This document shows, piece by piece, positions 48,083 to 48,111 of a stretch of 64,000 nt of DNA (positions are counted from its first letter, which is position 1; each line of letters starts with the position of its first letter). The notes beneath the pieces are model-generated. The model was not told the origin of the DNA. It saw only the letters and a list, made by a program, of their open reading frames with translations, and ran no database searches. The position numbers and the translations under genes are program-made. The stretch lies in contig JACRMH010000022.1 of the NCBI GenBank assembly GCA_016219545.1, forward strand, positions 101,108 through 165,107, written 5' to 3'. This stretch comes from Chloroflexota bacterium (GTDB lineage: Bacteria; Chloroflexota; Anaerolineae; Anaerolineales; Villigracilaceae).

Positions 48083-48111
48083 ATTATACACTTACAGAAT
48101 CAGTTTGATTC
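48083..48111 (-). promoter_or_regulatory. ccrM promoter with two GANTC sites
   Basis: On the minus strand TATAAT (48088-48083) lies 7 nt before the GTG start. Upstream are GAATC (48097-48101) and GATTC (48107-48111), both matching GANTC, with centres 10 bp apart. They cover the spacer and -35 region. Self-methylation of these sites could regulate the gene, as known for ccrM in Caulobacter; here that is inferred. Confidence 0.6.

Follow-up and report, generated by a model that had tools for sequence, protein, structure and literature searches.

The question raised by this locus is whether a GANTC adenine methyltransferase from outside the Alphaproteobacteria adjusts its own production through target sites placed in its own promoter. 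In Caulobacter crescentus, GANTC is found in the promoter of ccrM itself, and its methylation most probably affects this promoter (PMC3973325, PMC2217572). In the window, that is, the whole stretch of 64,000 nucleotides from a Chloroflexota genome analysed here, a preliminary description had pointed to two GANTC sites one helical turn apart over the -35 and spacer of a ccrM promoter, and had proposed a methylation feedback perhaps linked to replication. The two sites are indeed present upstream of ccrM, at 48097-48101 and 48107-48111, with starts 10 bp apart. The features needed for the discussion are the following:

48107-48111, minus strand: distal GANTC site (GAATC), 10 bp upstream of the proximal one; not conserved in the ortholog comparison and fitting chance.
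48097-48101, minus strand: proximal GANTC site (GATTC), 8 nt upstream of the -10 box; the conserved one (22/41 ortholog promoters vs 2/264 background sites).
48083-48088, minus strand: -10 box TATAAT, 7 nt before the GTG, which implies a leaderless mRNA; a spacing of 6-8 nt is kept in orthologs.
48073-48075, minus strand: start codon GTG, predicted to coincide with the transcription start or to adjoin it.
46987-48075, minus strand: ccrM-like GANTC adenine methyltransferase gene, 362 aa, GTG start (PF01555 plus RAMA PF18755; 60% identity over 348 aa to Caulobacter CcrM, 6pbd).
46508-46990, minus strand: 160-aa ORF from the ORF list, sharing 4 bases with the end of ccrM; Pfam, PADLOC and NCBIfam gave no hit.
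45993-46541, minus strand: DUF6036/AbiEii-like nucleotidyltransferase gene (PF19502 plus PF08843), third gene of the presumed ccrM operon.

Read along the minus strand, the sequence runs GAATC (48111-48107), AAACT, GATTC (48101-48097), TGTAAGTG, TATAAT (48088-48083), TCACTTT and GTG (48075-48073), or in short GAATC-N5-GATTC-N8-TATAAT-N7-GTG, directly 5' of the ccrM-like gene. Over the whole window GANTC shows no enrichment, with 261 sites observed vs 310 expected. The 160-aa ORF at 46508-46990 is probably co-transcribed with ccrM, and an ORF of the same type is also found 3' of ccrM in loci L005, L021, L131 and L148. On the other side of the gene, none of Pfam, PADLOC and NCBIfam matched the ORF directly upstream (297 aa, 48137-49030, minus strand), which has a similar counterpart adjoining ccrM in L005 and L131.

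The assignment of the gene as a ccrM ortholog was borne out. The protein scored 221.5 bits with the N6/N4 methylase domain PF01555 and 57.8 bits with the RAMA domain PF18755, and aligned almost end to end with residues 15-366 of Caulobacter CcrM (6pbd; 476 bits, 210 of the 348 aligned residues identical). When the base contacts to GANTC were taken from the CcrM-DNA structure (PMC6787082), the reading residues D31-Y34, L38, L42, R44, P45, F63, Y93, H94, M122-F125, R129, S315, H317, N330, W332 and R350 were identical, and those differing from CcrM were G39/G40 (at the variable base), L43, N47, K126, R268 and P271. The NCBIfam equivalog NF050803 was matched over its full length with 568 bits vs a cut-off of 830, in such a way that only the Caulobacter-type equivalog is missed. 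From this sequence we infer that the enzyme encoded at 46987-48075 (minus strand) methylates GANTC. Its neighbours are family-less ORFs, the DUF6036/AbiEii-like gene and genes of the xanthine-dehydrogenase type, and no cognate restriction gene was recognised beside ccrM at the locus with Pfam, PADLOC or NCBIfam; the enzyme appears to be solitary, the family-less ORFs leaving a small doubt.

The proposed affiliation to the Chloroflexota also holds for this genome, a MAG, as the orthologs belong to the Anaerolineales and the genus includes "Chloroflexi bacterium OLB14". A ccrM ortholog was detected in 103 of 120 genomes of the family (E<1e-100), almost always as a single copy, and its distribution is patchier in the wider class (52/247). 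That some Chloroflexi encode CcrM homologs with a conserved C-terminus was already listed by Gonzalez et al. (PMC3973325). GANTC methylation is likewise known from Anaerolineae: in the long-read data of Hiraoka 2019 (PMC6329791), 98.7% of the GANTC sites of the Anaerolineae genome BD1 carry m6A, and the GANTC-type methyltransferase of the related genome BS3 is listed outside any restriction-modification (R-M) system.

To assess the conservation of the sites, ortholog upstream regions were de-replicated at under 70% identity, giving 121 regions in the Chloroflexota set. A TAYAAT box was present within 110 bp of the start in 41 of them, and 22 of these 41 had GANTC 8-9 nt upstream of the box. 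The distances showed a sharp peak, with 5 cases at N8, 17 at N9 and 0-1 at every other distance. When 15 control palindromes of the same form were placed at N8-9 before TAYAAT, the best of them (AGNCT) gave 4 cases and the rest 0-1. In a background of 464 kb from the window's own genome, GANTC stood at N8-9 in 2 of 264 TAYAAT sites, one of them being that of ccrM. A Fisher test of 22/41 vs 1/263 gives p ~3e-21, a value that ignores relatedness and overstates the case because the orthologs are related. Better arguments appear to be the diverged flanks of these promoters in the ortholog alignment, the free central base (G in 10, A in 7, T in 5 and C in 3 of the promoter elements) with both half-sites kept, and the occurrence of the element in divergent orthologs, such as L036, L041 and L088 (with TACAAT) and L042 and L043 (63% identity). 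In 19 of the 25 elements counted, 6-8 nt separate the -10 box from the start codon, so the ccrM mRNAs are probably leaderless.

The simplest alternative is that GANTC, a common 5-mer, happens to fall in this promoter. This suits the distal site well, but the proximal one lies nearly two orders of magnitude above background, at a fixed spacing and in many species; the ortholog comparison refutes chance for the proximal site, which at N8-9 is more than a coincidence, and as an account of the locus we regard chance as extremely improbable. Even so, four loci, among them that of the closest relative (L005, 85% identity, together with L019, L071 and L095), keep the -10 box with GANTC missing at N8-9, from which it follows that the proximal site is dispensable or easily replaced. 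Many orthologs lack both the site and a promoter that can be recognised: the sense strand upstream gave no match in 127 of 173 loci, in many of which the promoter may lie beyond the fetched DNA, and on a quick tree of 104 proteins its presence or absence switches around 20 times.

The distal site behaves differently. A second GANTC within 40 bp was found in 8 of the 22 promoters with the proximal site, at scattered offsets, and only in the window does it lie exactly 10 bp upstream. The frequency is close to that predicted from GANTC density, and the site at 48107-48111 looks like a product of chance. The arrangement of two sites one helical turn apart, which the preliminary description had pointed out, is therefore not conserved, and it was rejected as a signal because relatives do without it and its frequency is about that expected from GANTC density. 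An operator formed by the inverted repeat GAATC...GATTC was also set aside, since any such pair inevitably makes an inverted repeat and relatives lack the second site.

The claim that the sites lie over the -35 and the spacer stands as regards position, but no -35 box is recognisable beneath them. At 17-bp spacing the nominal -35 would read GAATCA (48111-48106), which matches poorly, and no sigma-70 site was reported by the promoter scan on the minus strand at the ccrM promoter, so that the distal site is "over the -35" by position only. No -35 consensus was visible among the ortholog GANTC promoters either. This absence, with a single conserved element left upstream of the -10 box, would suit a different reading, in which GANTC is the contact site of a methyl-sensing activator, a functional counterpart of GcrA, that replaces the -35 contact, in such a way that methylation raises ccrM transcription in a positive or pulsed manner. 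At methylated promoters GcrA acts together with sigma-70; in Caulobacter, one co-activated cluster is made up of promoters whose GANTC falls between -10 and -35 (PMC4287350); and a second leaderless promoter of the same layout precedes a lipid kinase gene in several genomes. However, GcrA itself is absent from 41 genomes, a candidate activator is not known, and the element is rare genome-wide, which would leave a dedicated factor with few targets; we consider such an activator unlikely.

The element also accompanies the operon promoter when other genes separate it from ccrM. In several loci GANTC-N8/9-TATAAT stands before the first of the intervening genes, which are DUF6922 plus AbiEii cassettes in L132, L017, L149 and L152, a transposase-like gene in L022 and a DUF6922-like gene alone in L054 and L055; the element was located at -913 (L017), -955 (L149), -921 (L152), -708 (L022), -382 (L055) and -278 (L054). 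Elsewhere around the ccrM loci it was found 0 times in 665 kb of antisense and once in 372 kb of downstream DNA. A neighbouring FAD-domain gene has it in 4 loci, all with a promoterless ccrM next to it (p 0.015, from a small sample). Toxin-antitoxin-like genes (AbiEii/DUF6922, HEPN-MNT, PIN, DUF6036) recur within the ccrM transcription unit, some of them between promoter and gene, as seen in the window (45993-46990), L132, L017, L149, L152, L138 and L006. In L055 and L134 the promoter is followed by a stretch resembling the 5' end of ccrM, which hints at the insertion of a cassette at this point.

Across 57 genomes of the genus the leaderless GANTC pattern matched at more than 100 places, of which at least 19 correspond to ccrM (17 by coordinates and 2 by identical sequence); the control with the reversed pattern is a weak one, as it is not a leaderless promoter. 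The second commonest carrier is a lipid-kinase-like gene, found in 6 genomes by coordinates and in more by sequence. This gene (G000:C33:59303-59330; L119, L315) is leaderless, with GANTC-N8/9-TATAAT and a spacer, CCCCTCAGG, which is itself conserved, so that the GANTC at this promoter may be incidental. A recurrent leaderless promoter, GTGACCGYGMTGGGTATAAT-N6/8-ATG, possibly the operator of a regulator, stands before many genes in the same 57 genomes. GTNAC was dropped as a neutral genome-wide control, being spoiled by this separate recurrent promoter of the GTGACCG type.

That other genes share the layout, the lipid kinase with its conserved spacer among them, and that the genus has leaderless promoters of the GTGACCG type would agree with the conserved GA-N-TC being an ordinary promoter class, a sigma factor or regulator element that matches the methylation motif by accident. 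Yet the central base is as free as in the enzyme's own motif with both half-sites kept, and the layout is commoner at ccrM than at any other gene seen in the 57 genomes; we give this explanation little credit.

Our preferred reading is that the ccrM core promoter includes the proximal GANTC as a working element and senses its methylation state, and we hold this to be moderately probable. The presence of the enzyme's own target at a fixed place in its promoter indicates that the enzyme probably tunes its own production, and methylation-sensitive autoregulation, probably of negative sign, would be the best explanation of the data. RNA polymerase would use TATAAT and start at or next to the GTG, yielding a leaderless mRNA, and CcrM would methylate the GANTC at about -25 to -21. 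The methyl groups would then change how active the promoter is, with methylation of both strands most likely reducing its output. The resulting self-limiting loop would match the enzyme level to the unmethylated sites, and repression would be relieved briefly when a replication fork passes or CcrM runs short. In this organism the site at 48097-48101 would be methylated, with an effect on transcription whose sign is presumed to be negative. The stretch from -25 to -21 is not a strong contact of RNA polymerase, so the direct effect of methylation could be small. The single conserved core-promoter GANTC of ccrM favours the feedback that the preliminary description had attributed to the pair, the pair itself not being conserved.

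An alternative is that the enzyme, bound to its own unmethylated site, stands in the way of RNA polymerase as a steric block, methylation being incidental. The conserved position overlaps the promoter, and self-regulation by binding is known for some methyltransferases, SsoII among them. But SsoII acts through a separate N-terminal region, whereas the protein studied here aligns nearly end to end with CcrM and no such region was seen in it, and the enzyme would be titrated by the approximately 1,700 GANTC sites counted in 464 kb, making a steric block quite improbable.

Autoregulation of negative sign finds its closest analogy in type II R-M systems. In CfrBI, the methylase's own site lies in its promoter and methylation lowers transcription of the methylase; promoter methylation is likewise the means of control in AhdI and LlaDII (PMC12707154). 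It is this CfrBI-type analogy that favours negative feedback by full methylation. As in these three systems, the recognition site occupies a fixed place in the enzyme's own promoter; unlike them, no restriction enzyme was recognised beside ccrM, a single gene that nearly all members of the family possess. The Caulobacter case shares the solitary CcrM enzyme with GANTC in its own promoter, and also the placement of the site between -35 and -10, where the -25 to -21 position comes near the GANTC at about -28 of ctrA P1 (PMC4287350). It differs in that here the leaderless GANTC-N8/9-TATAAT unit is near-invariant and belongs to a different phylum, and in that neither GcrA nor an intergenic excess of GANTC nor a comparable dnaA site turned up. 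The CL500-11 bacterium is of the same class, and has m6A at GANTC with a methyltransferase outside an R-M system; the ccrM promoter is not a subject in the sections of Hiraoka 2019 (PMC6329791) covered here. Our literature search found no report of a fixed-spacing GANTC self-site in Chloroflexota.

The suggested link to replication did not gain support. GcrA was detected in 0 of 41 genomes in a search that did detect the Caulobacter control. Counting GANTC beyond the locus, in a 464-kb sample with crude gene calls (ORFs of at least 100 aa), gave observed/expected ratios of 0.80 in coding and 0.78 in intergenic DNA, a mild depletion in both, and an intergenic/coding density ratio of 0.83, hence no intergenic enrichment in this sample, in contrast to that of Alphaproteobacteria (PMC3973325). 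Among 29 relatives, the last 80 bp upstream of dnaA contained GANTC in 1 and the N8-9 layout in 0, and dnaA was rejected as a second methylation-controlled promoter. The lack of GcrA, of intergenic enrichment and of a dnaA site means that a Caulobacter-like cell-cycle network is not supported; replication may still have an effect through hemimethylation.

In SAR11/Pelagibacteraceae ccrM loci (L171-L210), the last 100 bp contain TTGACC-N2/3-GATTC or GAATC followed by GANTC 10-16 bp further on, and all 23 distinct loci listed (23/23) have at least two GANTC sites just before ccrM. By its sequence this looks like a self-site arrangement of separate origin within the Alphaproteobacteria, suggesting that self-sites may have arisen more than once.

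A broader scheme, which we regard as doubtful, is that the Anaerolineales run a GcrA-independent epigenetic switch, in which GANTC replaces the -35 and the methylation state of one site sets the leaderless ccrM operon, with toxin-antitoxin genes under the same promoter in some lineages, plus a small regulon including the lipid kinase. The comparison presented here provides evidence that the target of an adenine methyltransferase is fixed in its own core promoter outside the Alphaproteobacteria and without GcrA, and it yields a testable prediction at the level of bases, namely one site, N8/9 spacing and no -35. If true, solitary methyltransferases of the CcrM type would carry a simple built-in control of their own level.
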